Shown here: piece by piece, positions 34,104-49,880 of the stretch
How positions within the stretch are numbered: the first letter of the stretch is position 1
Layout: each line of letters opens with the position of its first letter
Assembly: GCA_003164715.1 (NCBI GenBank)
Contig: PLTZ01000054.1
Location: 1 to 64,000 of the forward strand
Length of the DNA: 64,000 bases
Direction: 5' to 3'
Source: Opitutaceae bacterium
GTDB taxonomy: Bacteria; Verrucomicrobiota; Verrucomicrobiia; Opitutales; Opitutaceae
Made by a program: the position numbers and the translations under genes
Notes under the pieces: generated by a model
Databases searched by the model: none
The model's input: only the letters and a program-made list of their open reading frames with translations
What the model was told of the DNA's origin: nothing

Positions 34104-34107
34104 CCGC

Positions 34108-34713
34108 TTACGGCTTGGCGGTGACCGACTCCCACTTCGTCTGGTTCACCTTCAGGTCGGGATGTGATACAAACAGGTGCCAGACAATGGCTTGAAATGC
34201 CTCGCTGTGCGGCGTGACGTTGTTGGGGTTCACGGTCGGCACGATGACGCACGCGTCGGCGACCTTGGCGGTGTAGCCGCCGTCCTTGCCCACGATCCCG
34301 ATGATCCGCGCGCCGACCTGCTTTGCGAGCTGGAGCGCGGCGACGAGGTTCGGCGAGACGTTCTTCTCCACGTTGCCGCCGCCTACCGACAGGATGAAGA
34401 GGCAGTCCTTGCTGTTGAGCTTGCTCACCCTCAGCCACTCGACAAACACGCTGGCCCATCCCTCGTCGTTGGTGCGCGCCGTGAGCTCCGAGACATTGTC
34501 CGTCGGGGCATAGGTCTCGATCCCCGCGATCTTGCGAAAGTCGTTCACCGCGTGCGAGGCGTTGGCGGCGCTGCCCCCCACGCCAAGCATGAAGAGCCGC
34601 CCGCCATGCTCCCTCACGGCGCGCAGTTCGGCGACGCACTTATCGCAGTCGGCCGGATTAAGCTTCGCCACGATTTCGGCCGTTTCTTTCAGGTGCTGTG
34701 CTGAGTACGACAT
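34108..34713 (-). CDS. gmhA: Phosphoheptose isomerase-like SIS protein, GmhA
   Basis: 201 residues, one SIS domain. It converts sedoheptulose 7-phosphate to D-glycero-D-manno-heptose 7-phosphate. Motifs: MLGVGGSAANASHAVNDFRK with the phosphate-binding Gly/Ser stretch, LTARTNDEGW with the conserved Glu, SVGGG, and PHSEAFQAIVWHLFV carrying the C-terminal Glu and His. This NDFRKIAG variant is the one I know from GDP-heptose gene sets rather than from ADP-heptose LPS-core genes. Same strand and close spacing with gmhB and hddC. Confidence 0.88.
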   Translation of the reverse strand: MSYSAQHLKETAEIVAKLNPADCDKCVAELRAVREHGGRLFMLGVGGSAANASHAVNDFRKIAGIETYAPTDNVSELTARTNDEGWASVFVEWLRVSKLNSKDCLFILSVGGGNVEKNVSPNLVAALQLAKQVGARIIGIVGKDGGYTAKVADACVIVPTVNPNNVTPHSEAFQAIVWHLFVSHPDLKVNQTKWESVTAKP

Positions 34714-34763
34714 GGGGGTCAGGATGCAAATGGCGGTCCCAAATGCGAGGCGGCAATGGGGGG

Positions 34764-35477
34764 CTACGTGGATTTCTTAAGCAGGCTGTCGAGCTCGCGC
34801 AGGCCGGCGTGCGACCCGACCTCGTAAAACCGCTCCCTAATCTCGAGGCCGGCAAGTTCTCCGCGGCCAAGGAGGGCGCGCTGGACGTCCGAGAGGTCCA
34901 CGACCTCGTTGCGCGCGAAGCCGTCGAACGCCTGGCTCCGGAACACGCCGAGGCCGTAGTCGATGTGCCGCATGGCGGGGAGCCTGTTCTTCTTGTCGTA
35001 CGCCCGGATGGCGCCCGCTTCAAACCAGACGTTGCTTGAGTCGAAGCGCCCGCTGTTCTCAAAGACAGTCATCATCCCGAGCTTGCCGGAAGCGAGGAAG
35101 GCGCGGCCGACGGCGAGGTAGTCGATCGGCAGGTAGCTGTCGCCGTACAGGACGTAGAAGGCGTCCCCGAGCGCCGGCAGCGCCTTGATGAGCGCCCCGC
35201 CGGTCCCGAGGAGCTTCGGCCCGTCGAAGGAGTACGCGATCTCGACCCCCCAGCGCGAGCCGTCGCCGTAGCGCTCGACGATCTTCTCGCCCAGGTAGCC
35301 GACGCACAGCACCAGGCGCCTGAGGCCGGACTTCTTCAGGAGTCGGATCTGGTGCGTGAAGAACGGCTCGCCGGCGACGTCGACCAGGAGCTTGGGGAGG
35401 GTCTCGGTGATCGGCTTGAGGCGGGTGGCGAGCCCCCCCGCGAGGATGGCGACCGGAAGCTCCGCGGGACTTGGCAT
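34764..35477 (-). CDS. hddC: Heptose-1-phosphate guanylyltransferase, HddC-like
   Basis: 237 residues, a sugar-phosphate nucleotidyltransferase. The signature is AILAGGLATRLKPIT with the catalytic Lys in LPKLLVDVAGEPF. GTGGALIKALPAL and LYGDSYLP (metal-binding Asp) follow. By neighbourhood with hddA, gmhA and gmhB it should join GTP and D-glycero-alpha-D-manno-heptose 1-phosphate. A hexose-1-phosphate substrate cannot be excluded from sequence alone. Confidence 0.86.
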   Translation of the reverse strand: MPSPAELPVAILAGGLATRLKPITETLPKLLVDVAGEPFFTHQIRLLKKSGLRRLVLCVGYLGEKIVERYGDGSRWGVEIAYSFDGPKLLGTGGALIKALPALGDAFYVLYGDSYLPIDYLAVGRAFLASGKLGMMTVFENSGRFDSSNVWFEAGAIRAYDKKNRLPAMRHIDYGLGVFRSQAFDGFARNEVVDLSDVQRALLGRGELAGLEIRERFYEVGSHAGLRELDSLLKKST

Positions 35478-35495
35478 CGGTCGGGGGCCGTTAGA

Positions 35496-36479
35496 TCAGT
35501 TCTGGGCGACAACCTTGGTGCCCTCGAAATCGAACCGGAACCGGACCTCCTGGAGGCCCTTCTCCCGCATCGCGTGCCGCAGGCGCTTCTTGTCACCGGC
35601 ATAGAACATCAGGAATCCGCCGCCGCCCGCCCCGATCAGCTTCCCGCCAAGGGCCCCGTTGGCCATCGCGGCGTCGTACCACTCGTTGATGCGGGCGTTG
35701 CTCATCCCTGAGCTCCTCTGCTTCTTGCGCTGCCAGTGCACGTCCATGAGCGCGGCAAACTCCTCGAGCTTGCCCTGCTCGAGGCAGTCGAGCGACTTGT
35801 AGCCGAGCTCCTTGGTGAAGTGCAGGTTGTCGAGCATCGACGAATCATGGGCCTTCGAGCGGTCGTTCTGGTCTTTGAGAATCACGGACGCGCTGCGCGA
35901 GTATCCGGTGAAGAAGAGCAGCAGGTTGTCCTCGAGGTTGTAGAGCGTCTCCTCCGAGATCTGGCACGGCTTGAACTCGACCCGCCCGTCCTTGTGGAAG
36001 GTGAACGCGGTGATCCCGCCCACGGCGGCAATGTACTGGTCCTGCTTGCCGATCGGCTCGCCCAGGCGGTTGATCTCGATGTCGCAGGCCTGCTCGGCCA
36101 GCTCGGCCGGCGAGATCAGGCTCTTCTTGTGCGCGTGGAGCGCCTTCAGAAGCGCCGTCGTGAAGCTTCCCGAGGAGCCGAGCCCCGTGCCACCGGGAAT
36201 GTCGGCCATCGACGTCAGCTCGATGTGCGGGTCGGTGACGCCGGTCAGCTTCAAGGCCTCGCGGACGATCGGGTGCTCGATCTGGTCGACCGACGTGACG
36301 CGCTCAAGCTTCGAGTACTTTACGATGATCTCCTCCTGGAAGGTGGTGTGCTTGGTGATGTACACATACTTGTCGATGGCCGCGGCGACGAGGAAGCCGC
36401 CGTGCTCGCTGTAGTAGCTCTTCAGGTCGGTGCCGCCGCCGCCCAGGGAGACGCGCAGCGGTGAACGTGTGATGATCAT
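35496..36479 (-). CDS. hddA: GHMP kinase, HddA-type heptose 7-phosphate kinase
   Basis: 327 residues from ATG 36479. It phosphorylates D-glycero-D-manno-heptose 7-phosphate at C1. GHMP motifs: RSPLRVSLGGGGTDL at the N-terminus, IPGGTGLGSSGSFTTAL (ATP-binding Gly/Ser loop, about 95-110) and IGAGGGGFLMFY near the C-terminus. The length is typical. Its start overlaps the stop of the upstream oxidoreductase gene (ATGA), tying that gene to the heptose operon. Confidence 0.93.
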   Translation of the reverse strand: MIITRSPLRVSLGGGGTDLKSYYSEHGGFLVAAAIDKYVYITKHTTFQEEIIVKYSKLERVTSVDQIEHPIVREALKLTGVTDPHIELTSMADIPGGTGLGSSGSFTTALLKALHAHKKSLISPAELAEQACDIEINRLGEPIGKQDQYIAAVGGITAFTFHKDGRVEFKPCQISEETLYNLEDNLLLFFTGYSRSASVILKDQNDRSKAHDSSMLDNLHFTKELGYKSLDCLEQGKLEEFAALMDVHWQRKKQRSSGMSNARINEWYDAAMANGALGGKLIGAGGGGFLMFYAGDKKRLRHAMREKGLQEVRFRFDFEGTKVVAQN

Positions 36480-37501
36480 GGGATGGGGTAGCCGCTTTTC
36501 TTGTAGATTGCCTCGACTATTTCGAGCGTCTTCACGCCTTCCCGCAAGCCCGGCGATGGCGTGCGGCCAAGCCGGACGTCCTCGACAAAGGCGAGCGTCT
36601 CCGCCGCCCAGGAATCGTCCCCGGCGGCAAACTCCCAGGTCTGGGTCTCCGGTGGGCCCATCTGGGGAAGCATCTTGTAGTAGGTCAGGCGCTCGGTGCC
36701 GTAGCTGCCGCCCAGGCCGTCCACGGCGAGCTTCCCGTCGCGCCCATAGATCTCGAGGGAGAACAGGTTCTTCCACTCCGTGCAGCTCACCTGCAGCCAT
36801 GCGGTCTGGCCGCCCGCCGTCCGCAGGCAGAGGAACGCGTTGTCGTCCACTTTCATGTCCCAGAAGAACGTCGCCGCATGGCCCTCCACCGTCGGGAAAT
36901 CGCCGAGGAACCAGGACGCCAGGTCGATAAGGTGCACGCCCTGGTCGATCAATTCGCCGCCGCCCGAGAGCTTCGGATCCGCGCGCCATTCGCGGTCGTA
37001 ACCCTTGCGCCCCCCGTGGCCGTAGCGCCCGCGCAGGAACATGAGGGGCCCGAGGACCCCGGAGTCCACGATCTCGCGGGCCTTCGCAAGGCCGGGATGA
37101 TACCTGTGGTTGTAGCCGATCCGCACCCGGACGCCGTGCGCCGCGGCCGGGCCCTCCAGGCTTCGGAGTTCGCCGGGGCCGAGGGCGCCCGGCTTCTCGA
37201 TGAGCACGTGCTTGCCGGCGCGGATGGCGGCGAGCGCGATCGGGGCAAGCGATGCGTTGAGGGTCGCGACGATGACCGCATCGACCTCGGCGTGCGCGAC
37301 GACCGTCTCAAAATCGGCCGCGGGTTCGCAGGCCGCCGCGAGGCCGGAGACGGCCGCGGCCCGGGCCGGATCCAGGTCGCAGGCGAACCGGAGCCGGACG
37401 CCGGGGACCTTGGCAAGGGCCACCGCCCGCTTCCTGCCGATCAGTCCGCAGCCGACGATGGCGAAGGACAGCGGCTTATTGGCGGGCGTGGGAGCGTTCA
37501 T
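36476..37501 (-). CDS. Gfo/Idh/MocA-family oxidoreductase
   Basis: 341 residues from ATG 37501. The N-terminal Rossmann domain opens AIVGCGLIGRKRAVAL and carries HVLIEKPGAL. The C-terminal beta domain contains GYNHRYHPGLA, GGGELIDQGVHLIDL with the catalytic-region His, and WLQVSCTEW. It is the first gene of the heptose operon and overlaps hddA. It may oxidise a sugar or nucleotide sugar for heptose modification or an amino-sugar route. The substrate is not readable. Confidence 0.87.
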   Translation of the reverse strand: MNAPTPANKPLSFAIVGCGLIGRKRAVALAKVPGVRLRFACDLDPARAAAVSGLAAACEPAADFETVVAHAEVDAVIVATLNASLAPIALAAIRAGKHVLIEKPGALGPGELRSLEGPAAAHGVRVRIGYNHRYHPGLAKAREIVDSGVLGPLMFLRGRYGHGGRKGYDREWRADPKLSGGGELIDQGVHLIDLASWFLGDFPTVEGHAATFFWDMKVDDNAFLCLRTAGGQTAWLQVSCTEWKNLFSLEIYGRDGKLAVDGLGGSYGTERLTYYKMLPQMGPPETQTWEFAAGDDSWAAETLAFVEDVRLGRTPSPGLREGVKTLEIVEAIYKKSGYPIP

Positions 37502-37564
37502 GCAAGATGCCTTCGCAGGGGAGGGGGCTCCACGCAAGTGAAGAATATGCCCCGGCGCTGCGTA

Positions 37565-37582
37565 CCCGCGCGCCAGCGCGGG
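37565..37582. other. Strong GC hairpin in divergent intergenic region
   Basis: CCCGCGC (37565-37571) and GCGCGGG (37576-37582) enclose a 4-nt loop, in the 158-nt gap between divergently transcribed genes starting at 37501 and 37660. It may be an operator or a leader hairpin. No second copy was seen in the window. No convincing promoter boxes stand out in the rest of the gap. Confidence 0.35.
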
Positions 37583-37659
37583 CACGAAGGGAAGGACAGC
37601 GACGAGGGACATCAACACGGGCTTGTCACTGGCGCCGCGAGCCGATTCTTCTCATATGC

Positions 37660-38049
37660 ATGGCAGCCCTTCTTCCAAGGCTTTTGCGCTACGCCGCCGT
37701 GGGCGGCCTGGTGATGGTCGTGTTCAGCGGGCTGAACTGGCTGCTGGGGCGCCATTTTGGGAAGGATGTCTCGTTCCTGCTGGCGTACCCGCCGGCGGTC
37801 GCGCTGCATTTCTGGCTGAACAAGACGTGGACGTTTGGCTGCGAGCGGACGGACGCCGCCCGTCAGGTCTCGGAGTACGTTGTGATGGTCGCCGTCACCT
37901 TTGCGATCCAGGCCGCGGTCTTCAAGGCGCTGACGGTGTTCACAGGCCTCCCCGGATGGGCCGCGGCCGCGGCGGCAAACGCGGCCCAGATGGCGATCAC
38001 CTTCCTCGCGATGCAATTCAGGATTTTCAGGAACGCGCCTGAGCTCTGA
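37660..38049 (+). CDS. GtrA-family membrane protein
   Basis: 129 residues from ATG 37660; the longer in-frame reading upstream is not hydrophobic and is unlikely to be coding. Four helices: about 9-27, 37-55, 70-90 and 98-118. Family signatures are LLRYAAVGGLVMVVFSGLNWLL and ALHFWLNKTWTFG, plus FRIF at the end. GtrA proteins help move polyprenyl-linked sugars across the inner membrane, usually with a GtrB-like GT2 and a GT-C transferase. Its stop overlaps the start of the next gene (TGATG), so it may supply the substrate for that protein. Confidence 0.87.
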   Translation: MAALLPRLLRYAAVGGLVMVVFSGLNWLLGRHFGKDVSFLLAYPPAVALHFWLNKTWTFGCERTDAARQVSEYVVMVAVTFAIQAAVFKALTVFTGLPGWAAAAAANAAQMAITFLAMQFRIFRNAPEL

Positions 38050-41000
38050 TGGCAAGACGCTGGCTCGCTGGCATTCTGACGGTCTCGTTTGCCCTGAGGA
38101 TCTGGCTCGCCGCGGGAGGCGGCCAGGGCTTCTGGCCCGACGAGTCGCGCTACGGGTCGGCCCGGGCGGCCGCCTTCGACCTGACGCACGGAAGGTTCAG
38201 GGACGCGCTTGAGGCCCTCTTCGGACACGCCGACCATGTTCTTTTCCGTCCCGCGGCCCTGCCCGCGGCCCTGCTCGACTCATGGGCCGGCGGGGCGCAT
38301 CCGGCCCTTGTCTGGGCCTATTTCGCCCTCTTCTCGGTTGGGATAATCTTCCTTATTTGGGCGGTAGCCCTGAGGGTGGGCGCCTCTGAGTCCGAGGCCC
38401 TATGGGCTGCCTTCCTGGCAGCCGCGGCCGCCAGTCTCTTCAGTTACTCGAGGTTCTATCTTCCCTACGACGTTGCGCTGTTTGGGCTCATGGCGGCCCT
38501 GTGGGTGGCCCTGGGCCGGGGCACACCGGGTAACTCGATACTGACGGGCGCCGTTGCAGGACTTGGGTTCCTGACGTACAACGGCTATTGGCTGCTCTGC
38601 GGGACGGTGCTCCTCCTGTACACGGCTCTCGGCGACGGAGGCCCGAGGAAGGCGGTGATGCGGGGCGGCTTCGCGGCGCTGGGCCTCGCGCTCACCGTGT
38701 CGCTTGTCGTCGCCGCGGGAGGCGCCTTGTCGGGGGGCGTGCTGTCGGCCTACAGGGCGCTAGCCGGCAGCGTGAAGCAGGGGGATTTCCACATAGGCTA
38801 CCGGGTAATCACGGAATACCTTTGGTTCACGGAACGGGGGTTGGCCATTCTCGGCGTGGCCGCGCTCGCCTTCGCCGTCGCCACCGGCTCGCTAAGCCTG
38901 CGGGGCGGCCGGCTGCGGTGGTGGATGGGGGGCCTGGCGCTGGTGGTCGGCGGGCTCGTCTTCTTCTCTGACGTCGTGCCGGTCTTCATGGTTTACGGCA
39001 GGCTCACCCGGGCGGCGGTCCCCTTTGCCTGCCTGGGGGCGGCACAGGGAATCACGCTCTTCCTGGAGCGGCGCCGCTTCAGGAGGCTTTGGTCGGCGGG
39101 CCTGGCCTTGCTGGTGGCGCTCCTCGCGGCCTACAATTTCGCGGCGCCGCTCCGGCAGGTGTTCCCGTCCGATTTTTCCCTGATGTCCGAGAAGGAGATA
39201 AGGCGGGACTCCGGCAACGCGTACAGTTTCTACCTCGTGCTATTTGCGGAGCCCTTGTGGGGCAAGCCGCTCCACTACGACCTGCCGCCTCACGAGGACC
39301 TTCTCGTCCGTGCGAACCCGATGGCCTATCGGCCCTACCAATACGAGGGATACTCCGCCGCCCAGCGTGAGGAGCTCAACCGCCTCGATGTTTCGATGCG
39401 ACTGGTCCGTTTCGATGCGCGCCTCAAGCGCTACGACCGGGACCTGGACGGCTACCCGGGCCCCGTGCGGATCACGGTGACCTTCCGCCCCGTCGACGCT
39501 TCAGGCACCGAGCCCCTCGTGGTCTGCGGAACCCGGGATGCGGCCGACACGGTTTTTGTCAGATACGTGGATTCCAGGCATATCGCCTTCGGCCTGGACC
39601 ATTGGGGCACGCCTCTGCTCCTCTCGGAGCCTCTGGAGGTGGACTTCGCGAAGCCCCACGAGCTTGTGGTCTCGGCGGGATCGCTCCTGCCACCGCCCGC
39701 AAGCGCCTTCTACGGGGCGTCACCGGCATGGCGGGGACTGCGCGACCGCTTCGTTGTCATCATGGACGGCCGCGTGGCGGTCTCGACGCACGCTGACTTC
39801 TATCCCTGCACACCCGAGGACATCCTTTTTGGGGCCAACTTGGTTGGCGGCTCGACAGCCGTGACCCGCTTCTCCGGCGCGGTTTCGGCCTTCTCCAGGG
39901 CTTCGATTGAGGACATCGCCGCCGCGGTCCCATCGGCGGCCGCTGCAAGGATCGTGCGCGAGCGGCCCGCCGATTGGGCGGGTGCCATGGGACCGCTGCG
40001 CCTGCGGTTCCGGCTTCGCCCGCCCGGGCCGGGTTTCTTTGCGAGCCAACCTCTGCTCGGCATTGGGGGGCCAAACTCGAGCGACATGCTTTATGTTGAA
40101 CAGGGTGCGGGAGGGGGTTTTCGGATCGGCTACGATAGCCGCGGCCGCGCCCTGCTGCTCTCCGAGCCGATGTCCCCTTCAGCGAGCGGTTGGGAAAGCA
40201 TGGATGTCTGGATTGGCTCCCTGCTTCCCGCTTCCGGCGCCCCCGTCTTCTCGCGTTTCAAGGGGCTCGAGAGGATGCGCAGCATGATTGACATTCGGGT
40301 GAACGGAGAGCCGGCGCTGCTCGCAGAGAGGCCGTTTGCGCCTGTCAACCCCAAGTGGATCGCGCTCGGCGAGAACACCATCGCCTGCTCCCTTTGCGGC
40401 GTGCATTTCCAGGGCGACATGCCTTCCGTGCGCGCGATAGGGCCGGAAAACCTGCCGGCATTCGGGACGCGTCTGGGCGAGATGCTGGACAACCCGGACG
40501 ACGCATGGTGCGGGCACACCGGCCCGCTAAGGCTCAGGGTCCGATTCCCAACCGGTCTGGCGGGCGAGACCGAGCCGCTGCTCGTGTCGGGCTCCACAGG
40601 AGCCGGGGATGCCCTGTCCGTCCGTTATGACGACGACAGCCACCTGCGGTTCCTCTTTGAGCACTCGCGAGGCGAGGCGGTTGTGTCGGAACCCGTGACG
40701 ATCCGGCCCGGTGAAATGAACGAGGTCCTCCTGAGCACCGGGGCGCTCATGCCTCCTGAGGGGGCGCGGCTTTACGAGGACTCGCCCGACCTTCTCAGGC
40801 TTCGCGCCCTCGCCGAGGTTGCCGTGAACGGCCGGCCCGTCCTTCTGGCGTGGCAGGCGCCGCATCCCTGCGACGCCCGGCAGGTGGAGCTTGGAGCGAA
40901 CAATATCGGGGTCGGCGCATCGGGGCCGCGCTTTCACGGGGAGATTGGCGCGCTCTCGATCGCCCGGCCGGCGGACGCCTTCGAGCAGGGGGCCCTCGAC

Positions 41001-41504
41001 CCCCGCTTGGCGAGGCCGGGATGGGAGGGCTACCCGGGCCCCTTGCGGCTCAAGTTTTCCGTGCGCGAGGAAAGGCCTGGACTAGGACAGCCCATCATCA
41101 CCACGGGCGTTCCGGGTGGCGGGGACTTCATCTTCCTCGACTTCGGGACCGACGGGCTTGCCCGCATCGTGCTCGATCACTGGGGCTCGGCGCCGGTGCG
41201 ATCGGCCGGATTCACGCTGCCGCCCGGGGGATGGCATGAACTCACCATGAGCTTTGGTGGGCTCTTTCCGCCGCCGCAGTGCGCTCTGTACGAACGCCAG
41301 CCCGAGCTTCTGAAGCTGCGCTCGATACTGGTCATCCTCGTGGACGGGCGCCGGGTTCTGTCATCAGCCGAACCGAGCCACCTGACGCCTGCGGCGCGGA
41401 TAATCCTCGGGGCCAATCTGATCGGGGGCTCCAGCACCGGGCCTCTTTTCGGGGGAAGCATCACCGAGGTTGAGCAGGCGCCGCTCGAGACCGTGAGGCC
41501 TTAG
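38049..41504 (+). CDS. Giant membrane protein with four copies of an unnamed beta module
   Basis: 1151 residues. Residues 1-365 are membrane-embedded: about ten helices, with a first loop WPDESRYGSARAAAFDL whose Asp-Glu pair resembles the catalytic loop of GT39/ArnT-like enzymes. Residues about 366-465 are a linker. Then come four tandem modules of about 150 residues (468-617, 645-797, 822-973, 993-1146), each with GPLRL-like, PLL-x-x-G, DHW-like, LSEP, VNGR-like and GANLIGGS-like blocks. Related modules end the proteins at 41565 and 44346. It probably transfers or binds glycan at the periplasmic face. The start overlaps gtrA-like. Confidence 0.75.
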   Translation: MARRWLAGILTVSFALRIWLAAGGGQGFWPDESRYGSARAAAFDLTHGRFRDALEALFGHADHVLFRPAALPAALLDSWAGGAHPALVWAYFALFSVGIIFLIWAVALRVGASESEALWAAFLAAAAASLFSYSRFYLPYDVALFGLMAALWVALGRGTPGNSILTGAVAGLGFLTYNGYWLLCGTVLLLYTALGDGGPRKAVMRGGFAALGLALTVSLVVAAGGALSGGVLSAYRALAGSVKQGDFHIGYRVITEYLWFTERGLAILGVAALAFAVATGSLSLRGGRLRWWMGGLALVVGGLVFFSDVVPVFMVYGRLTRAAVPFACLGAAQGITLFLERRRFRRLWSAGLALLVALLAAYNFAAPLRQVFPSDFSLMSEKEIRRDSGNAYSFYLVLFAEPLWGKPLHYDLPPHEDLLVRANPMAYRPYQYEGYSAAQREELNRLDVSMRLVRFDARLKRYDRDLDGYPGPVRITVTFRPVDASGTEPLVVCGTRDAADTVFVRYVDSRHIAFGLDHWGTPLLLSEPLEVDFAKPHELVVSAGSLLPPPASAFYGASPAWRGLRDRFVVIMDGRVAVSTHADFYPCTPEDILFGANLVGGSTAVTRFSGAVSAFSRASIEDIAAAVPSAAAARIVRERPADWAGAMGPLRLRFRLRPPGPGFFASQPLLGIGGPNSSDMLYVEQGAGGGFRIGYDSRGRALLLSEPMSPSASGWESMDVWIGSLLPASGAPVFSRFKGLERMRSMIDIRVNGEPALLAERPFAPVNPKWIALGENTIACSLCGVHFQGDMPSVRAIGPENLPAFGTRLGEMLDNPDDAWCGHTGPLRLRVRFPTGLAGETEPLLVSGSTGAGDALSVRYDDDSHLRFLFEHSRGEAVVSEPVTIRPGEMNEVLLSTGALMPPEGARLYEDSPDLLRLRALAEVAVNGRPVLLAWQAPHPCDARQVELGANNIGVGASGPRFHGEIGALSIARPADAFEQGALDPRLARPGWEGYPGPLRLKFSVREERPGLGQPIITTGVPGGGDFIFLDFGTDGLARIVLDHWGSAPVRSAGFTLPPGGWHELTMSFGGLFPPPQCALYERQPELLKLRSILVILVDGRRVLSSAEPSHLTPAARIILGANLIGGSSTGPLFGGSITEVEQAPLETVRP
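39450..41486 (+). repeat. Four tandem protein-domain repeats within the gene
   Basis: DNA positions of the four modules: 39450-39899, 39981-40439, 40512-40967 and 41025-41486. They are divergent at DNA level but share the order GPLRL, PLLVSG, VRYxD, LSEP, HELVVS-x-GSLLPP, LR then VNGR, and GANxIGGS-x-x-x-x-FxG. They resemble LamG/concanavalin-like sandwich modules, which is a fold guess only. Confidence 0.7.
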
Positions 41505-41564
41505 CGCGCACGCGGTCCAAAAATCCTCGCCAAACCTGGCGGTAGACGGGTTACAGTGGCCGGA

Positions 41565-44339
41565 ATGGTCGGTTTCCTCGCTCTCCTTGGGGTTCCGCTG
41601 CTTGCGGGCCTCGGTGCCTGTCTTTGGCCCCACCGCAAGTCGCCGGCCGAGCGCAGGGAGATCACCTCAGTCTTCGTCCTCCTGCTTGCTGTCGGCCTCT
41701 TCATCGCCGGGCCCTTCCTCACGACCTCCGGCATAGGAACGGGCGAGGCCATCAATTACAGCCTGAGCACGGCGGACTTCGCCACCCAGGCGAGGGCCGG
41801 GGTGTACCCGCCGCTGGTCGGTCAGAGCGAGTACGCCTTCAACGGGCGGATTCATCCCTTAAGGACCGCCCCCTACATCGGGCACCTGGCCGGGCTGATC
41901 GATCTCCTCACCGGACGCAGGCTTAACTTCTGGGCGATCCAGAACCTGGAACTCTCCGCAAGCCTGATCGCCGCGGTCTTCAGCATGTACGTATGCCTGC
42001 GCAGGGCCACCCCGGCGTCCCGTTACACGGCGGCCGTCCTGGCGGCGTGCTACGGGCTGGCTCCCGGGGTTCTCTCGGTCGTGTACGCCATGGACCTTTA
42101 CATGACCGCCATGACGCTCCCGTGGGTCCCTGTGGTCCTGTGCGGGGCGATCGGCCTGCAGAAGCGGTGCGGCTTTGAGGAGGTCGCGCTCCTGGCGATC
42201 GGCCTGGGAGTTTCCTGGGAGGCGCATCCCCCCGTTGCGTTCTGGCTTACGATCGTCAGCGCGCTCGTGCTGCTTCCCCCAATCCTCGCCGGGCGGATTC
42301 GCGGCCGGCAGTGGCTGTACCTGGCCGCGGGGGCCGTCTTCTGCGGGTGCATTGCCGCCTTTGGATTCATGTCGGCCCTGACCGTGAGGAACTACGGTCA
42401 GATCACGGAGGTCTCGAGCGTCGAGCTACTCCTCGGCGAGGTCAGGAAGGTCTTCGCGGACTCCCTGCGCCCGGTGAGCCCGACTGCGAACAGGCTGGGG
42501 GACTTCCAGCTCGGGTACCTTTACTGGGCCTTCCTCGCGCTGGCATGCGCCGGGGCGCTCGCGCGGCGAAGGCCGCTCCCGCTCTGGCTAACGCTCATCA
42601 CCGGGGTGCTGCTCCTGCTGACGACGCCGGTGCCGTTCCTGACCGAATGGATATGGAAGCATGCGCCGACGATCACGGTGACGCTTACCAACCAGTGGCC
42701 GATGCAGCGGCTTTACCTGGTCGCCACCGCGCTCATCCTATTCGCGCTTGCGTCCGTCTATCCGCGAATCGGGCCGATCCCGAAGCAGGCGCGCGACGTC
42801 GCGCTTCTCGCCATCCTGGCCGCGGCCGCATGGACCGGGTTCGAGGCCTACCGCTTCGTGGGCCGGGGCTTCTCCTCCCGGCTTCCCGAAGGCCGCTCGG
42901 CGCTCCTTCACCACCCCGAGAACATCAACCTGACGATCGTCTCCTATGCGATCCTCGGGGCGCCCCCCTCCTTCGAGAGTGGCCCGATGGATCCCGCGAT
43001 GGAGTTCCGGTTCCTGCGCCGGTTTGACGCCCGCCCGATCGCGGGCAACTGGGAGGCCGCCCTGGCGCAGCCGGGCCCCGTCCAAAAGGGTACCTTTGAG
43101 ACGACCACGAGTGCCGAAGGCTCGGTATCGACCGCCCCCAAGCTGGTCCTTGAGCCGGGCCGGCGGTACATCCTTACCGTAGCCCTTTCGGGGCCGGCGC
43201 GCGCCGGGACGCTCCAGCTTTCGGGCGGGTCGCTCTACCGCGAATACCCCGTGCTGCCCGCCGCCTCCTCGTGGGGCTTCGGGGTTGCGCAGGGGCTCCG
43301 GCGCCCCCTCTCGCTCTGGACGGCCGGCAGCCGGCCGGAGGAGATCGAGGTCAGGTTCGCGGATGCGATCGACGGGACCCAGTTGGGGGACTTTGCCGAC
43401 TTCACGTTCAAGGAGGTCGACACCCACAGCCTTCCGGTGGTGCTCGAGTCCCTGGTTCCGCTTAAGATGCGGGTTCTGGCGCCCGAGGCCTGCTACCTCG
43501 AGACTCCGCGGCTCTTTCTCGAGGGATACCGGGCGACCGTGAACGGCCAGGGCGCCCGCGTTCAGGGGTCGCCGGACGGGCTCGCGATGTTCGCCGTTCC
43601 CGCCGGGGAATCGACCGTGGTCCTGGCCTACGCCGGCCCGGCCTCCCTGCGGGCGGCCTTTGGGATTACGCTCGTCGCCTCTCTGGTCGCCGCCGCCGTC
43701 CTGTTGCTGGTGCTGGTCCCGGAGCTGGAGCCCTTGCTTCGCAGGATTAAGGGCCTCCTCGGAAGGGCCGCCTCCTTCACCCTGCGGCGGGGCTGGCAGC
43801 TGGCCCTTGTTGCGCTCGTCCTTGCCGCCCTCGCAGCCGGCATTCGCCTCTGGCGGGCGAGCTGCCCGCAGGCTGGAGCGTTGCACGTCCGCCTTGTCCT
43901 TCCGCGAGGGCAGACGGGCCGCCAGCAGCCCGTGCTCGTGACCGGCAGGAAGTCGGCGGGGACCTTCGTGTACCTGGTCTACCAGGATGCGACCCATGTG
44001 AAGGTGGGCGTCGATGTATGGGGGGTGCTCGGGTACCAGTCGGAGCCCGTCGAGGTCGACTATTTTGCAGAGCAGGATCTCGTCATCTCGACCGGGGCCC
44101 TTTACCCCGAGGGAAATCCCGCCCTGAGCGGCCTAGAGCCCGCGGCGCTCGCCGACCTGCGCGGGCACATCCGGGTGGACCTGAACGGCCGCAGGGTGGT
44201 CGACAAGGCCGTCCAGGACTTCCCCAGCGCTCCAGGGGAAATCGACATTGGGCGGAGCCGGATCGGCGGCTCAAACTGTGAGCCGAGGTTCACCGGGACA
44301 ATCCTCGCCGCCGAGCGCCTGAAGGTTCCTGGGCGCTGA
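41565..44339 (+). CDS. Giant YfhO-like membrane protein with one C-terminal beta module
   Basis: About 924 residues from ATG 41565 (an in-frame GTG lies at 41556). About twelve helices occur before residue 430. The first large loop has GVYPPLVGQSEYAFNGRIHPLR, followed by LDLLTGRRLN-like text and later TNQWPMQRLYLVATAL. A periplasmic beta domain follows with LEPGRRYILTVAL, GSLYREYPV, CYLETPRLFLEGYRATVNG and VPAGESTVVLAY, as in YfhO-type proteins. A last helix pair precedes one module (about 772-921). It is paralogous to the proteins at 44346 and 52079. A role in sugar transfer at the periplasmic face is likely but unproven. Confidence 0.72.
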   Translation: MVGFLALLGVPLLAGLGACLWPHRKSPAERREITSVFVLLLAVGLFIAGPFLTTSGIGTGEAINYSLSTADFATQARAGVYPPLVGQSEYAFNGRIHPLRTAPYIGHLAGLIDLLTGRRLNFWAIQNLELSASLIAAVFSMYVCLRRATPASRYTAAVLAACYGLAPGVLSVVYAMDLYMTAMTLPWVPVVLCGAIGLQKRCGFEEVALLAIGLGVSWEAHPPVAFWLTIVSALVLLPPILAGRIRGRQWLYLAAGAVFCGCIAAFGFMSALTVRNYGQITEVSSVELLLGEVRKVFADSLRPVSPTANRLGDFQLGYLYWAFLALACAGALARRRPLPLWLTLITGVLLLLTTPVPFLTEWIWKHAPTITVTLTNQWPMQRLYLVATALILFALASVYPRIGPIPKQARDVALLAILAAAAWTGFEAYRFVGRGFSSRLPEGRSALLHHPENINLTIVSYAILGAPPSFESGPMDPAMEFRFLRRFDARPIAGNWEAALAQPGPVQKGTFETTTSAEGSVSTAPKLVLEPGRRYILTVALSGPARAGTLQLSGGSLYREYPVLPAASSWGFGVAQGLRRPLSLWTAGSRPEEIEVRFADAIDGTQLGDFADFTFKEVDTHSLPVVLESLVPLKMRVLAPEACYLETPRLFLEGYRATVNGQGARVQGSPDGLAMFAVPAGESTVVLAYAGPASLRAAFGITLVASLVAAAVLLLVLVPELEPLLRRIKGLLGRAASFTLRRGWQLALVALVLAALAAGIRLWRASCPQAGALHVRLVLPRGQTGRQQPVLVTGRKSAGTFVYLVYQDATHVKVGVDVWGVLGYQSEPVEVDYFAEQDLVISTGALYPEGNPALSGLEPAALADLRGHIRVDLNGRRVVDKAVQDFPSAPGEIDIGRSRIGGSNCEPRFTGTILAAERLKVPGR
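43878..44327 (+). repeat. Single copy of the shared beta module
   Basis: The C-terminal module of the preceding protein has the same block order as the repeats at 39450-41486: LHVRLVLPRG, QPVLVTG, VYLVYQDATHV, SEPVEVDY, LVISTGALYP, LRGHIRVDLNGR, then IGGSNCEPRFTGTI. Confidence 0.7.
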
Positions 44340-44345
44340 GGGCCG

Positions 44346-47300
44346 CTACCTGCCGGGCGCAGGGGGAAGCACCGGGCCCGCGCGTTCGGCAAAGATGACG
44401 GTCCCGCTGAACTCGGGATCGGACGTGGAGCCCCCGATCGGGTTCCGCGCAACCGCGACCTCGCCGGGGGCGGACGGGTAGGTGGCCTTCTGCAGGGAGA
44501 GGACGACCTTCCCGTCGAGCCGAACATCAACCTGTCCCGCGAGGCGGCGGCGCAGGCTCGGGTCGAGCCCGCGCCACGCCTGGTCATCGTCGGCCCCGGG
44601 AAACAGCGAGCCCATGCTGATCCAGATCTCATGGGGGGCGCCGTAGTCGACAGCGATCGGAGCACTCAATCCACCACCGACCGCCCAGTGGTCGAAACCA
44701 AGGCGCACATGAGCGTCGTCTGCGTACACCACGTAGACAAAGTCCCCGGCGCCCGTGTGCCCCGTAGAGAGCAGAGGCTCCTGGCGGCCGGGCTTGCGCG
44801 GCGGGAACCTGACGACCAGGTGAACCGGACCGCTTGTCTCGGGCTCGTCGCTCGCCTTTGCCATGTGGGTTCTCAGCTCCACGTCCATCTGCGGCCCGGT
44901 GAAGCGCGCGTCGACCCCGGGCGCCTTGAAGATGTTGAGCCCCGAGACGACGACCGGCGGCTCGGGCGCCGGAATGCTCTGATGTCCGATCACATGGACC
45001 CCGTCGAACTCGCAGGCCACGTCGAAGCTCGCCGGGACGTCGGGCGCCTCCCCGGTGATGAAGTCCACCTCATGGGCCGCCTTAGGATCGTAGGCGACCT
45101 CCGCAGACTTGGCCGGCACGCCGCCAGGTCCCCAGCAGGTGAGCCGAATCCTGCCCGCGGCAAGGTAGGTGACGTAGCACACCCGCCGATTCGGTCCCGA
45201 GGACACCGACAGGAGGGGCTCGCTCCGTCCCGAGGCTTCCCGGGGAAAGACGAGGCGCATATGCGTGTGGCGCCCCGACGGCAGCGCGAACGTCCTCGGC
45301 GTCGCAAGGCGCTCCACCTTCAGGATTTCGCCCATGAATTTTCCGTCCGAAGTGGATCCAAACGGCGCCTCGCCCGCCAGCACCTGGGATGGGGTTGTCT
45401 CATAGGCGTAGGCCGGGGAGTCGATCGCCACGCGGCCATTGAGCTCCACCCGGATCTCGCCGCGCAGGCGCTCCGCCTCCGAGGGCTGGAGCGCCTTGAC
45501 CTTCGGGTTGGAAAGCGGGAAGAGCGCGCTGTCCGAGACGACCAGCGACTGGGGCCGGCCGTAGGGCACCTCCAGGGGGGCGCTCTGGAAGAGCGTACCC
45601 CAGACGTCCGCTTCGACGCGAACGTGGTCCCTGTCGAGGAGGCTGATCGAGACCACGGTTCCGGCCCCGGCCTGACCCGTCGTGAGAATGGGCTGGGTGA
45701 AGCCGAGGAGGCCGGCTGGGCGGGTGAACTCCACCCGAATCGGGCCTACGGCCTCGAGCGAGGCCGCGTGCAAGGCCCGCACATATAGGGCGATCGTGAG
45801 CGCCGCGGCGGCCGCCGCCACGGCGAGAGTCGCCAGCTTGCGTCTCTTTGCGAAGGCAACGGGTGCGAGCGTGGCATCAAGCAAGAGGCCGAGCCACCTC
45901 GGGGTCCTCAGCCAGCCAAACCGGAGCCTCGAGCCGCCCGACCACAAGACGAGCTGCCAAAAGGCACCCGCGCCGAGCCCTGCCCAGCCGAGGGCGCCGA
46001 TCCAGAATGTCGCCGTGAGGCCGAACGGGGGCGAATACGTCAGGGTCACGTAGCTCACCCCGGCGCCCACCGGGATCATCACGAGGTTCTCCGGGGAGCG
46101 GATCGCGGCGGTCCAGCGCCCGTTGACGGTGGCCCGCCATCCCTTAAGCCACATGCGCGGGGTCTCCAGGTAGGCGGTCCGGGGAGCGGTCACGCGGGCC
46201 CGGTACGGGATCCACGACTCGACGCAGATCGGCAGGCGGTCACGCTCGTACGCATAGAGCCAGAAGCGGCCGAACGGGAGGTTCTCCCCCGCGTAGCGCG
46301 GCGCGATGAACATGCCGGTCGGCTCCACGGGTCCCGGCTCGTTCACGACCAAGGGGAAGACGCGGCTGCTCATGGGGCCCGAGCCGAACGCAAGCGAGGG
46401 GCCCCGGCGCGCGGCTCCCGAGCCGGAATCCGGCAGCATGTACTCCCGGAACATGCTGCGGGTCTCGAGCTGAAGGAAACCCTCGACGCCCGGCTGGGCG
46501 AAGTCGAGGCGCAGCGCGTAACGCCGGCCCGGCTCCAGCAGCAGGCCAGGCTTGAGCCGGTAGTACCCGCTGTTCGTGACGCTCGTTCCCGTCCACGCCC
46601 CCGATTGCACCAGCTGGGAGCCGGAGTCCGCGACCCCGGGATGGCCCTCGGCCGGCGCCGCGTAGTCGGCGTTGCTGACGAAGGCCTCCATGGTGCGGAC
46701 ATCCAGGAGGCGGTTCTCCAGCCACGGGTCCATGTAGGCGTGGCTGAAGTACGACGGGGTGTAACTGAAGGAGGAGTAAGCGTACCGCGAAAGCCGCAGG
46801 TTGTCCAAACCCTCCGCGACCCTCGTGTCCTCGGGGGTGGACCGCATGGGGTAGATGACCCTCTCCATCCGGTACGCCTCCCGGCCGGACCAGGCGATCG
46901 CGCACGCGAAGAACGCGAGGAGCGCCGCATAAGGCCCCCTTCTCGAGCCGATGCCGCGGGAAGCGATCACGATGGCGGCCGTGAAGACGATCAGCGCCGA
47001 CCAGACCAGAAACAGGCGCTGCATGGGCCAGATGTTCTGGATGGTCACAAACCAGCCCGGAAGATGGGACCAGATGGCGTTCGTGAGCCACGGGACGGGC
47101 AGCTCGACCGGGATGATCAGGATTGTCGCCGCGGCAAAGCCCCACGCAACGCGCGGTCGCGGTCCCGCCATGAGGCACAGGGAGACTAGGAGGGTCCCGA
47201 GGAGGGCGTAGCCCAGTTGGTAGTCGGCGAGGCCCGGCTTGTCCGGGTTTATCGGCATAAAGTTCGCCGGGAAGTTGGCGTAGATGACCTCCGCCGCCAC

Positions 47301-48479
47301 CACCCCGGAGGCCTGGCTCTTGATCTGGTTGTCGAGCGTGAGCACCGAGACAAACGGCTCGGAGCCCAGGATCAGGAATGCCGCCGCGAGGAAGGCCGCG
47401 AGCCTGAACTCCCTCGACCACGGGCGCCGCCTGACGAAGGCGGGCATGTACAGGCATGCCGCGATGATCGTCAGCCAGAGCGCGATTGGCGAATGGCAGA
47501 TCCATGACCCCGCAAGGCCGGCGGCGATCCAGAGCCGGCCCCAGCGGTCCCCCTTCTGCCAGACGCGCCAGCAGCCGTGCAGCGTGAGCGGCACGAACGG
47601 GAGCGCCATGAAGGTCATGAACTGGTCGCCGATCATCGGCGGCGCGAGGACGCCGGGCCCGGTGATCCAGAGGACCGCGAGGGCACACGCGGCCCACGGG
47701 GCGCTCCGGAGGATCGACCGAAGGCAGGCGTACGCCGAATAGGCGCCGATGATGGCCGTCACGGCCAGCTCCGCGTTGCGCAGCGCCGTGACCTCGAGGG
47801 ACCGCAGGGTCAGGAGGTCCAGGACGGCGCCCGCGTACTGGAAGCCGGGTGCGTAGCGAAGGGGGGAGACGGCGCCGTTGAACGCGTAGGCGCTCTGGCC
47901 GACCCAGACGGGAAACACGCCTGAGCGCAGCTGGGTGATGAAGTCGCCGAGCATGGTCGTGTACCATTGGGCGTCCCCGGAGCCGATCGCGCCGCTGTAG
48001 TAGAACGGCGTCATGACAAGCGTCGCCGCGGCTCCGAGCGCGATCCACCGGAGCACCTCCTGCGAACGGCCTGAACCGCCGGAGGCGGCGCCAAAATAGA
48101 CACTCCTCATGAGCCAGATGAGGCCGCCCGCCGCGGCTCCGAGCCAGAGGCCCTCGCCTCTGCTCACGTGGAGCCAGCTGCCGACCCAGGGGATGCAGGC
48201 GAGCGCCGCCAGGGCCGCGCCGACCCCCGCCGCCTTGAGAAGCGCCAGGGCGGGGCGCCCCGGCGACGCCCGGTGCGCACGAAAGGCAAACGCGAGGAGC
48301 GGCGCCGCGAGGGCCGGCCCCAGCACCCGGGGCCAGGGGATCCCCGCGTGGTCCCCGAAACTCTGCAGGGCATACCAGAGCCACGCGGCGATCGCGGCGT
48401 CGCCCAGCATGACTGCGGCCACCGCGAGTCCGTCCCGACGCTTGAGTGGCTCGCCCTGCGAGACGTCGTGGTCCATCAT
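44346..48479 (-). CDS. Giant YfhO-like membrane protein with three C-terminal beta modules
   Basis: 1377 residues from ATG 48479 (a second ATG follows directly). About twelve to fourteen helices lie in residues 1-530, with the loop GSGDAQWYTTMLGDFITQL, then VFPVWVGQSAYAFNGAVSPLR and QNIWPMQRLFLVWSAL. The YfhO-like periplasmic domain (LEPGRRYALRLDFAQ, MFREYMLP, AYLETPRMWLKGWRATVNGR) covers about 545-820. More helices come to 905. Three modules follow: 912-1057, a divergent short one at 1073-1204, and 1217-1367. It is the final gene of a long overlapping operon, 16 nt after the GT2 at 48496. Confidence 0.73.
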   Translation of the reverse strand: MMDHDVSQGEPLKRRDGLAVAAVMLGDAAIAAWLWYALQSFGDHAGIPWPRVLGPALAAPLLAFAFRAHRASPGRPALALLKAAGVGAALAALACIPWVGSWLHVSRGEGLWLGAAAGGLIWLMRSVYFGAASGGSGRSQEVLRWIALGAAATLVMTPFYYSGAIGSGDAQWYTTMLGDFITQLRSGVFPVWVGQSAYAFNGAVSPLRYAPGFQYAGAVLDLLTLRSLEVTALRNAELAVTAIIGAYSAYACLRSILRSAPWAACALAVLWITGPGVLAPPMIGDQFMTFMALPFVPLTLHGCWRVWQKGDRWGRLWIAAGLAGSWICHSPIALWLTIIAACLYMPAFVRRRPWSREFRLAAFLAAAFLILGSEPFVSVLTLDNQIKSQASGVVAAEVIYANFPANFMPINPDKPGLADYQLGYALLGTLLVSLCLMAGPRPRVAWGFAAATILIIPVELPVPWLTNAIWSHLPGWFVTIQNIWPMQRLFLVWSALIVFTAAIVIASRGIGSRRGPYAALLAFFACAIAWSGREAYRMERVIYPMRSTPEDTRVAEGLDNLRLSRYAYSSFSYTPSYFSHAYMDPWLENRLLDVRTMEAFVSNADYAAPAEGHPGVADSGSQLVQSGAWTGTSVTNSGYYRLKPGLLLEPGRRYALRLDFAQPGVEGFLQLETRSMFREYMLPDSGSGAARRGPSLAFGSGPMSSRVFPLVVNEPGPVEPTGMFIAPRYAGENLPFGRFWLYAYERDRLPICVESWIPYRARVTAPRTAYLETPRMWLKGWRATVNGRWTAAIRSPENLVMIPVGAGVSYVTLTYSPPFGLTATFWIGALGWAGLGAGAFWQLVLWSGGSRLRFGWLRTPRWLGLLLDATLAPVAFAKRRKLATLAVAAAAAALTIALYVRALHAASLEAVGPIRVEFTRPAGLLGFTQPILTTGQAGAGTVVSISLLDRDHVRVEADVWGTLFQSAPLEVPYGRPQSLVVSDSALFPLSNPKVKALQPSEAERLRGEIRVELNGRVAIDSPAYAYETTPSQVLAGEAPFGSTSDGKFMGEILKVERLATPRTFALPSGRHTHMRLVFPREASGRSEPLLSVSSGPNRRVCYVTYLAAGRIRLTCWGPGGVPAKSAEVAYDPKAAHEVDFITGEAPDVPASFDVACEFDGVHVIGHQSIPAPEPPVVVSGLNIFKAPGVDARFTGPQMDVELRTHMAKASDEPETSGPVHLVVRFPPRKPGRQEPLLSTGHTGAGDFVYVVYADDAHVRLGFDHWAVGGGLSAPIAVDYGAPHEIWISMGSLFPGADDDQAWRGLDPSLRRRLAGQVDVRLDGKVVLSLQKATYPSAPGEVAVARNPIGGSTSDPEFSGTVIFAERAGPVLPPAPGR
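44379..45746 (-). repeat. Three copies of the shared beta module
   Basis: DNA positions are about 45309-45746, 44868-45263 (divergent, about 130 residues) and 44379-44831. The first and last keep PLL/PIL-TG, GAG, HVR, LR-GE/GQ and IGGS-like or FGSTS blocks. The middle copy keeps the EPLLSVSSG and YVTYL strands but has lost the VNGR and IGGS parts. Confidence 0.68.
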
Positions 48480-48495: not shown

Positions 48496-49437
48496 TCACA
48501 GATTGATTCGCCTCTCGATGATGTAACGCGGGCGCCCCCGCGCCTCGTCGAGTGTCCGCCAGAGATACTCGCCGAGGACGCCCAGCATGATGAGCTGAAC
48601 CCCTGAGACAATGAGGAGCACGCACATGAGCGACGACCAGCCCTGAACCGGGCTGCCGAGCAGGAGGGCGCGGATCGCGATCACCGCGGCGTACACGAAG
48701 CCGCTGAGCGCAAACAGGACCCCGCAGGCCGACGCGAGGCGCACCGGCGCATAGGAGAAGCTCACGAACGAGTCGACCGCCAGCTTGAGCTTCTTGCGCA
48801 GGGTCCATTTTGAGCGGCCGCTAAGCCGCGCGGCCTTGTCGTAGACGATGGATTCCTGGTCGAACCCCATCCACTGGATGAGGGAGAGGAGCGACGTGTG
48901 CTTCTCCGGGGCGGCGCGCAGCTCGTCGATCAGCCTGCGGTCGACCAGGAGGAAGTCGGCGCCCCTCGACGGGGGCTCCACCTCGGAAAACCGGCGCATC
49001 AGGTGGTAGTACAGGCGCGAGAGGAGCCTAGTCGGTAGGGACTCCCCGCGGCGCTCCCCGCGGATCGCCCACACCACCTTGGCGCCGCTCCGCCATTTTG
49101 CGACCAGTTCGGGGATCACCTCCGGGGGGTCCTGGAGGTCGGCCGCGAGGATGACTGCGGCGGCGCCCCCGCAGTGTTCGAGACCGGCCGTGAAGGCCTT
49201 GTGACTTCCGAAGTTCTTCGAGAACCGCAGCACCTTGACGCGCGGGTCCTTTGCCGCCAGCTCCGCCAGGACCCGGGCCGTCCCGTCGCGGGAATGGTCG
49301 TCGACAAAGATGAACTCCGGCTCTAGCTCGAGCGCGGGCCAATCGATGGCGCACAGCCGCTCGTAGAGCGCCGGAAGGTTCCTCTCCTCGTTGAACGCGG
49401 CGACGACGACGGAAAACTGGGGATTCTCGGCGCTCAT
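48496..49437 (-). CDS. GT2 polyprenyl-phosphate sugar transferase, ArnC/GtrB-like
   Basis: 313 residues from ATG 49437, chosen because it overlaps the previous stop (ATGA); an ATG at 49455 is also in frame. GT-A motifs: FSVVVAAFNEERNLP, FIFVDDHSRDGT, KNFGSHKAFTAGLEH and AADLQDPPE (98-106). Two C-terminal helices (about 231-257 and 266-290) end in GEYLWRTLDEARGRPRYIIE, the hallmark of the ArnC/GtrB branch. It should load a sugar onto undecaprenyl phosphate for a GT-C partner, plausibly the giant protein encoded next. Confidence 0.9.
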   Translation of the reverse strand: MSAENPQFSVVVAAFNEERNLPALYERLCAIDWPALELEPEFIFVDDHSRDGTARVLAELAAKDPRVKVLRFSKNFGSHKAFTAGLEHCGGAAAVILAADLQDPPEVIPELVAKWRSGAKVVWAIRGERRGESLPTRLLSRLYYHLMRRFSEVEPPSRGADFLLVDRRLIDELRAAPEKHTSLLSLIQWMGFDQESIVYDKAARLSGRSKWTLRKKLKLAVDSFVSFSYAPVRLASACGVLFALSGFVYAAVIAIRALLLGSPVQGWSSLMCVLLIVSGVQLIMLGVLGEYLWRTLDEARGRPRYIIERRINL

Positions 49438-49880
49438 CGGGTTCCTCGGCTCCATGAGTCAACCTCACTGCGCAGGTCCCGGACAATACGCGCCGGCACG
49501 CCCGCCATGAGGGAATAGGGCGGGACGACCGCGTCCTCGAGGAGCACGGCGCCGGCCGCGATCACGCTGTGGTCGCCGACCCGGGCGCCCATCTGAACGA
49601 CGGCGTTCGCCCCGACGAAGACATAGTCCCCGATCTCGGTCGCCTTGCGGTCGACCTCCGGGTACTTCCCTTGCGTCACGCACCTGCGGACCGTGGAATG
49701 GGAGAGCACCTGCGCGCCGCAGCTTATGTTGCACCCCTTGCCGATCTTCAGGCCGCCGAGTCCGTCGATCAGCGTGAATGCGCCGATCCAGGTGCCCTCG
49801 CCGATGTCGGGCGTGCCTGCGACCCAGCAGAAGGGGTTGTAGGGGTTTGGCGGCAGGGGTTTTGCTGCGTGCGGGTCCAT
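49434..49880 (-). CDS. Left-handed beta-helix acyltransferase (WbbJ-like)
   Basis: 148 residues from ATG 49880. Hexapeptide repeats are visible from about 25 to 130 (IGEGTWIGAFTLID, IGKGCNISCGAQV, IGDYVFVGANAVV, VGDHSVIAAGAVL), and the trimeric acyltransferase ending is VPPYSLMAGVPARIV. It probably N-acetylates the amine made by the DegT aminotransferase next door, 1 nt upstream. O-acetylation is an alternative. Confidence 0.85.
   Translation of the reverse strand: MDPHAAKPLPPNPYNPFCWVAGTPDIGEGTWIGAFTLIDGLGGLKIGKGCNISCGAQVLSHSTVRRCVTQGKYPEVDRKATEIGDYVFVGANAVVQMGARVGDHSVIAAGAVLLEDAVVPPYSLMAGVPARIVRDLRSEVDSWSRGTR

Follow-up and report, generated by a model that had tools for sequence, protein, structure and literature searches.

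The window, a 64,000-nucleotide stretch of the genome of an Opitutaceae bacterium (contig PLTZ01000054.1), contains three adjacent genes for large membrane proteins (P1, P2, and P3), whose C-terminal ends carry four, one, and three copies, respectively, of a module of ~155 residues (M1–M8). These genes and modules, and the neighbouring genes referred to below, are as follows.

37507–38049, + strand: gene for a GtrA-type putative flippase (PF04138 GtrA_DPMS_TM, 45.3 bits against a cut-off of 26.1)
38049–41504, + strand: P1, membrane protein with four C-terminal modules, itself without a Pfam match
39450–39911, + strand: M1, module in P1
39978–40448, + strand: M2, module in P1
40509–40973, + strand: M3, module in P1
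41025–41489, + strand: M4, module in P1
41556–44339, + strand: P2 (927 residues), YfhO-like protein of predicted GT-C type with one C-terminal module, without a Pfam match
43866–44330, + strand: M5, module in P2, with T, V, and S in place of the predicted-site residues D34, H52, and N134
44346–48479, − strand: P3, YfhO-like protein with three C-terminal modules and a likely ATG at 48479
45297–45755, − strand: M6, first module of P3, with T, V, and A at D34, H52, and N134
44865–45284, − strand: M7, middle module of P3, degenerate, as it also is in relatives
44370–44840, − strand: M8, last module of P3, with the complete predicted site; structure modelled
48496–49455, − strand: gene for a GT2 enzyme resembling polyprenyl-phosphate sugar synthases (PF00535, 96.8 bits)
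52079–54589, − strand: sister YfhO-like protein without a module (PF09586, 32.2 bits against a cut-off of 28.5)

All eight segments lie where the original prediction had placed a repeated module, in the same 4 + 1 + 3 arrangement, and the likely ATG of P3 coincides with the end given there for the third protein, 48479; a longer TTG frame of P3, to 48611, runs into the upstream GT2 gene.

The surrounding genes encode a GHMP kinase, a HAD phosphatase, a nucleotidyltransferase of the heptose-pathway or a related type, a dehydratase-like enzyme, a DegT aminotransferase, a hexapeptide acyltransferase, and a multi-glycosyltransferase protein. Because sugar-nucleotide, aminotransferase, acyltransferase, and multi-glycosyltransferase genes are thus found around P1–P3, the region is a polysaccharide locus. 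The GtrA gene is located upstream of P1, its stop codon having one base in common with the P1 start (TGATG), and the GT2 gene is located 16 bp upstream of P3; the GT2 product matches the PgfS model NF047588 with an E value of 1.3e-59, yet with 202 bits against a cut-off of 500. The gene set of a three-component system (GT2, GtrA, and putative GT-C genes) is accordingly present in the window, and among the 33 related loci, many of which are short, GT2-like genes occur in 13 and GtrA-like genes in 10. Within 33549–36989 (− strand), the GHMP kinase and the HAD phosphatase resemble those of a heptose-nucleotide pathway, and the nucleotidyltransferase has MurU as its best and HddC as its third NCBIfam match, all of them below the equivalog cut-offs. 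The segment 27264–31241 (− strand) encodes a protein of 1325 residues in which three glycosyltransferase stretches are found, one of group 1 and two of family 2.

The reality of the repeats was examined by pairwise alignment against 200 residue shuffles per pair. For the seven regular copies, all 21 pairs scored above the best shuffle (z 9 to 52), and for the eight copies together, 23 of 28 pairs did so, in keeping with the claim that the segments align above random. M7, corresponding to the copy that had been described as degenerate (44868–45263), was the weakest in this comparison, exceeding the best shuffle with just two of its seven partners (M5 and M8). It is nonetheless a credible module, because its alignment to the other modules is in register and its best matches are middle modules of P3-like proteins: the best match elsewhere is the middle module (68% identical) of the orthologous protein in L049, a locus of the Opitutaceae MAG palsa_1447 that carries P3-like and other orthologs, and the next are the middle modules of five further P3-like proteins. 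For each of the eight modules, the best match outside the window occupies the corresponding position in the L049 orthologs, and the module order is therefore old.

No Pfam or NCBIfam model reached its cut-off on the modules when the whole proteins and the modules were scanned, so that, as had been stated from the letters, they are not assignable to a named family. None of 83 modules reached the curated cut-off of Pfam Laminin_G_1, Laminin_G_2, or Laminin_G_3 (PF00054, PF02210, and PF13385); there were weak single matches to PF00054 (1/83, E 0.0054) and PF02210 (1/83, E 0.056). Searches of the window's own genome with PF13385 and PF02210 found nothing, and these models therefore miss the modules. 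A search of PDB sequences with the module profile gave sub-significant matches alone, the best being agrin (E 0.013), with no Emb chain at E 10. A candidate NCBIfam assignment, NF045579 rhamnoside_JR, was rejected as weak (E 0.0035 on P1 over 42 residues; one of 83 modules, E 3.4e-4).

The fold was more informative. The AlphaFold model of M8 (pLDDT 96.1; pTM 0.91; from 83 modules) is a β-sandwich of the concanavalin/LamG/galectin type. In a Foldseek search it matched CBM40, Limulus pentraxin, Gas6, agrin, neurexin, and laminin LG domains (E ~2e-4 to 3e-3; six matches with E ≤0.001; TMq 0.42–0.55 for the best matches, with CBM40, pentraxin, Gas6, agrin, and neurexin), and among the matches listed by VIA, which are not taken as exhaustive of families, were GH16 glucanases, sialidases, galectins, and the LG domain of SHBG (Z 10.2–11.2; rmsd 2.4–3.2 Å over 112–130 aligned residues). 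Profile alignment with hhalign pointed in the same direction. The profile of the 83 modules matched a Laminin_G_2 set at 90.5% (E 1.4e-6), and a pooled Laminin_G_2+3 set at 77.9% (E 1.8e-5) over columns 4–151, almost the whole module, against up to 1.3% in the controls for the pooled set. The Laminin_G_3 set by itself gave 9.0% (E 0.0037; its controls up to 0.3%). The controls consisted of the module profile reversed, the target sets reversed, and ten column shuffles of the module profile, and their overall maximum was 8.0% (E 0.0043), against the reversed Laminin_G_2 set. The Laminin_G_2 set comprised 21 segments from related genomes retained out of loci L130–L159, and the Laminin_G_3 set 12 segments out of loci L100–L122, from which the misframed L100 was left out; loci with stops or not simply cut were likewise omitted from these sets. 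The modules thus have in common with Laminin G domains (PF00054, PF02210, and PF13385) the predicted fold, the order of conserved blocks, and the Laminin_G_2 profile match, and differ in that no module reaches a Pfam cut-off. The original prediction of a LamG/concanavalin-type fold is borne out by the M8 model, Foldseek, VIA, and hhalign, and the module, judged by profile and model, is best called a putative new, divergent LamG-like family; the locus in this way points to a domain family unnamed by Pfam and NCBIfam.

The AlphaFold model of P2 (pLDDT 82.8, from 17 sequences) consists of a membrane part (~residues 21–468), an outer β-domain (~residues 485–692), more helices, and the module. In VIA, this model aligned with yeast STT3 (Z 21.3; 371 aligned residues; rmsd 4.2), AftD (Z 20.5; 447 aligned residues; rmsd 5.5), and ArnT (Z 18.6; 385 aligned residues; rmsd 4.5), and its membrane part with AftA (Z 18.2). 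The first four rows of a Foldseek search with the P2 model were chains of the EmbA–EmbB complex and AftD (E 2e-6 to 6e-5), the top rows having a low global TM of 0.23–0.30. A GT-C membrane fold of P2 is thus supported by the model, and P1 and P3 would also be of GT-C type, P1 probably of the PMT_2 type.

P1 and P2 gave no Pfam match at E 1, and P3 matched YfhO (PF09586) below the gathering threshold, with 15.1 bits against 28.5, a model that P2 did not match. P3 is 33% identical to P2 over 685 residues, and the module-free sister matches both over more than 650 residues at 31–32%. P1 differs in type from P2 and P3. The relative L070:6160-9141, which shares 50.9% identity with P1 across 460 residues in the N-terminal part, narrowly passes the PMT_2 model PF13231 (26.3 against 26.1 bits), and P1 contains the sequence WPDESRYG, with WPDEGRYG in L063, which we take to resemble an ArnT/PMT motif and which would be a candidate for the acidic catalytic motif of a GT-C outer loop. 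The two types meet in L063:3111-8990, a frame of 1959 residues in which YfhO-type and P1-type parts are fused with three modules, and which is followed by a module-only protein. Single-linkage grouping of the membrane parts merged the P1-type with the YfhO-type, probably via this fusion, and no family count is given. A frame of the same length (1959 residues) with modules is also found in an Opitutaceae genome (G450).

The arrangement of modules and membrane parts was surveyed in 74 module frames from the 33 loci and the window, of which 13 cut by the locus end and 1 duplicate were dropped, leaving 60. Membrane segments were taken from a Kyte–Doolittle window as a count of hydrophobic segments rather than a topology prediction. 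The modules follow at least five hydrophobic segments in 50 of the 60 complete distinct frames, and one module stands ahead of at least seven segments in five frames (after one segment in four of them, and after none in one). The remaining five have few hydrophobic segments, and two of them, in L075 and L077, look incomplete at the start. The other three (L063:9326, L066:10754, and L070:9056) have, judged by eye, an apparent signal peptide and otherwise consist of modules only; they are located directly downstream of P1-type genes and represent two genomes, L066 and L070 being on one MAG contig. A strict gene-split origin of these module-only proteins, by release of P1 modules 2–4, had weak support and is not proposed here. 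The module number per frame ranges from 1 to 4.

Lys/Arg counts at the segment before the modules, scored for 58 distinct segments out of the 74 frames, showed an excess on the N-terminal side in 34, the reverse in 10, and equality in 14; the counts on the N-terminal and the other side are 5:2 in P1, 4:3 in P2, and 4:2 in P3. Because of this mixed charge bias and the three module-only relatives with apparent signal peptides, an extracytoplasmic position of the modules is favoured. The periplasmic location first proposed for them is accordingly upheld in part, with the bias in 34 of 58 segments and the module-only relatives on its side, 10 segments against it, and 14 neutral, and it is less firmly supported than the repeats and the fold.

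The sampled genomes place the module in Opitutaceae only. In the window's own genome, there are two more clear copies (C71, E 6e-25; C36, E 3.5e-18), and a broader profile detected a further copy on C31 (E 4.8e-9). Hydrophobic membrane parts precede the copies on C71 and C31, and the one on C36 is situated at the edge of its contig. The 33 related loci are titled Opitutaceae, Opitutus, Opitutae/Opitutia, uncultured, or Verrucomicrobia, with L063 titled Akkermansiaceae, and one of them, L079 (EW11), is without a MAG mark. Module matches were found in 15 of 57 sampled relatives, but in none of the 20 among them that belong to other families of the order; within Opitutaceae, they were found in 47 of 200 sampled genomes and 17 of 49 genera (the own genome is included in these counts and in those that follow). 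The class sample (5/286) and the phylum sample (5/387) yielded the same five genomes, all Opitutaceae, so that no sampled genome of the order, class, or phylum outside Opitutaceae had a module match; the first-look candidates scored per genome were the best 9 in the phylum sample, 19 in the family sample, and 13 in the class sample. The module is absent from 2 of 12 same-genus relatives. When nine genomes were checked, membrane parts of the P2 and P1 types were found in two only, both with modules; a single weak module is present in one of the other seven, and none in the remaining six.

Covariation among 168 unique modules (9885 column pairs; weighted at 70% identity, kinship beyond that weighting being ignored) ranked H71–D110 first, D34–H52 second, H52–Y122 third, D51–S139 fourth, and W53–S139 sixth. 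In ten P3-like proteins, selected for having three modules and with gaps counted as absent residues, D34, D51, H52, W53, and N134 are kept in all ten last modules. The first modules have W53 in 10/10, D34 and H52 in 0/10, and N134 in 1/10; the middle modules have D51 and H52 in 0/10 and D34 in 1/10, and in all ten proteins they score lower against the profile than the other two modules. The modules of these arrays are therefore not equivalent: the predicted site is complete in the last, changed in the first, and lost from the middle one. In the M8 model, D34 and D51 are located on neighbouring strands (32–40 and 45–52), and by hairpin register they would face each other. Taken together, the covariation, the position-specific residue loss, and the strand positions of D34 and D51 point to one predicted binding rim in the last module (D34, D51–H52–W53, Y122, and N134–S139), which selection would maintain in some modules but no longer in others. 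Two observations led us to consider a calcium site like that of neurexin (D137 and N238 in the accessible text of PMC2570956): the alignment of D34 with an Asp of agrin and CSPG4, and the absence of D34 (10/10) and N134 (9/10) from the first modules. Covariation of D34 with N134 is weak (rank 2219 of 9885) and thus lends no support to a neurexin-type Asp/Asn calcium pair.

The repeats, the module fold, the GT-C core of P2, and the gene neighbourhood are supported by the computations, and in our preferred reading, which we hold to be rather probable, P1–P3 are GT-C transferases of a polysaccharide locus with divergent LamG-like tails that bind the acceptor or product glycan near the active site. 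The GT2 enzyme would transfer a sugar to polyprenyl phosphate, the GtrA-type protein would flip the loaded sugar across the membrane, and P1, P2, and P3, acting on the outer face of the inner membrane, would pass it on to an acceptor polysaccharide in the periplasm, while the tail arrays would hold the acceptor or product glycan close to the active site. We infer the polyprenyl-phosphate donor and the periplasmic transfer. Glycan binding by the modules, which the original prediction had suggested, is plausible, and the acceptor polysaccharide would be the most likely ligand by analogy with known systems. According to the accessible text of PMC3044687, the lectin-like C-terminal tail of mycobacterial EmbC binds acceptor analogues, and a Trp change in the tail leads to the loss of both binding and LAM synthesis. 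AftD and potentially S. aureus YfhO are ascribed carbohydrate-binding domains on the outer side, for which binding of the acceptor polymer has been proposed (PMC8035078, in its accessible part), and a periplasmic three-component scheme has been described for Gram-negative O-antigens (PMC11127046, likewise). Such a tail would not be needed for every enzyme of this kind, because the sister at 52079–54589 is encoded in the same locus without a module. We count against the preferred reading this module-free sister, the 9.0% with Laminin_G_3, the scores of P1–P3 below Pfam cut-offs, the mixed charge, the few GT2 and GtrA genes in related loci, and the weak D34–N134 covariation.

LG domains bind proteins and steroids as well, and the shared jelly-roll fold is by itself no proof of function, which counts against glycan binding. 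The modules might instead be protein–protein contacts that join the membrane enzymes, and the free module proteins, into one complex without binding glycan. The Gas6–Axl and neurexin complexes are among the Foldseek matches, the 1959-residue fusion fits a physical association of the YfhO-type and P1-type proteins, and a module-only protein directly follows a P1-type gene in three loci (two MAGs). Nevertheless, many of the VIA matches with the best Z are proteins that bind or cleave sugars, the module number varies from 1 to 4 among the 60 frames, and the last module of P3-like proteins keeps its five predicted-site residues in 10/10; we find this alternative unlikely.

A bolder form of glycan binding, which we offer as a quite unlikely proposal, is a clade-specific, position-coded glycan-reading arm, in which the ordered complete, altered, and lost sites would hold successive parts of one polysaccharide and direct where or how far the GT-C enzymes decorate it, some arms being released as exported proteins that act in trans. 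It is very unlikely that the modules merely shield or stabilise the enzymes in the periplasm, with no specific ligand: the middle modules of P3-like proteins are retained even though D51 and H52 are gone in 10/10, but the unchanged D34, D51, H52, W53, and N134 of the last modules (10/10) and the covariation of several predicted-site positions are unlike inert spacers. That the tails are rulers, as first suggested, or processivity arms, the module number setting how far the polymer is held or extended, fits the tandem arrays of up to four in an order as in the L049 relative and the degenerate middle module common to ten P3-like proteins, yet is the least probable of these readings, as P2 has a single module and separate module-only proteins could not act as a covalent ruler.

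Glycan-binding tails on GT-C enzymes, the preferred reading, would place P1–P3 beside known systems. With EmbC/EmbB, they would share a membrane glycosyltransferase and an outer C-terminal jelly-roll or lectin-like carbohydrate-binding tail (PMC3044687, accessible text), and Foldseek places chains of Emb complexes near the top of its list for the P2 model; the Emb tail, however, has two subdomains with a calcium ion according to the same text, whereas the LamG-like tails repeat one module up to four times in tandem and are found on several membrane types. The GT-C core of the P2 model aligns with AftD over 447 residues, and the likeness would be one of fold and outer domains, the latter being carbohydrate-binding in AftD (PMC8035078, accessible part). 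The CsbB–GtcA–YfhO system of three-component glycosylation described there likewise combines GT2, GtrA, and YfhO-like proteins, whose genes are in one cluster in the window; P2 and P3, however, are below the YfhO model cut-off, and LamG-like tails are not mentioned in the accessible part of PMC8035078, which offers the speculation that the acceptor may be bound by a separate protein.

In the literature found, outer lectin-like acceptor recognition by GT-C enzymes so far rests on mycobacterial enzymes. Our search, whose coverage left out most subscription papers, found no experiment on the present proteins and no earlier description of LamG-tailed glycosyltransferases of Opitutaceae. The family offers a natural series, in which the same module is placed on several membrane types, in one to four copies, terminal or inserted, together with a module-free sister enzyme and module-only proteins adjoining enzyme genes, and such a series makes the acceptor-binding question of GT-C tails directly testable.

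Some module-bearing proteins depart from the main types. Five multi-span proteins of another type in L068, L074, and L080 (− strand frames) have one module before at least seven segments, and the one of them that was scanned against Pfam gave no match. In L058:6935-10492 and L059:3392-5941, the modules follow membrane parts that group with neither main cluster, and the latter narrowly passes DUF2079 (PF09852; 28.3 against 28.2 bits).
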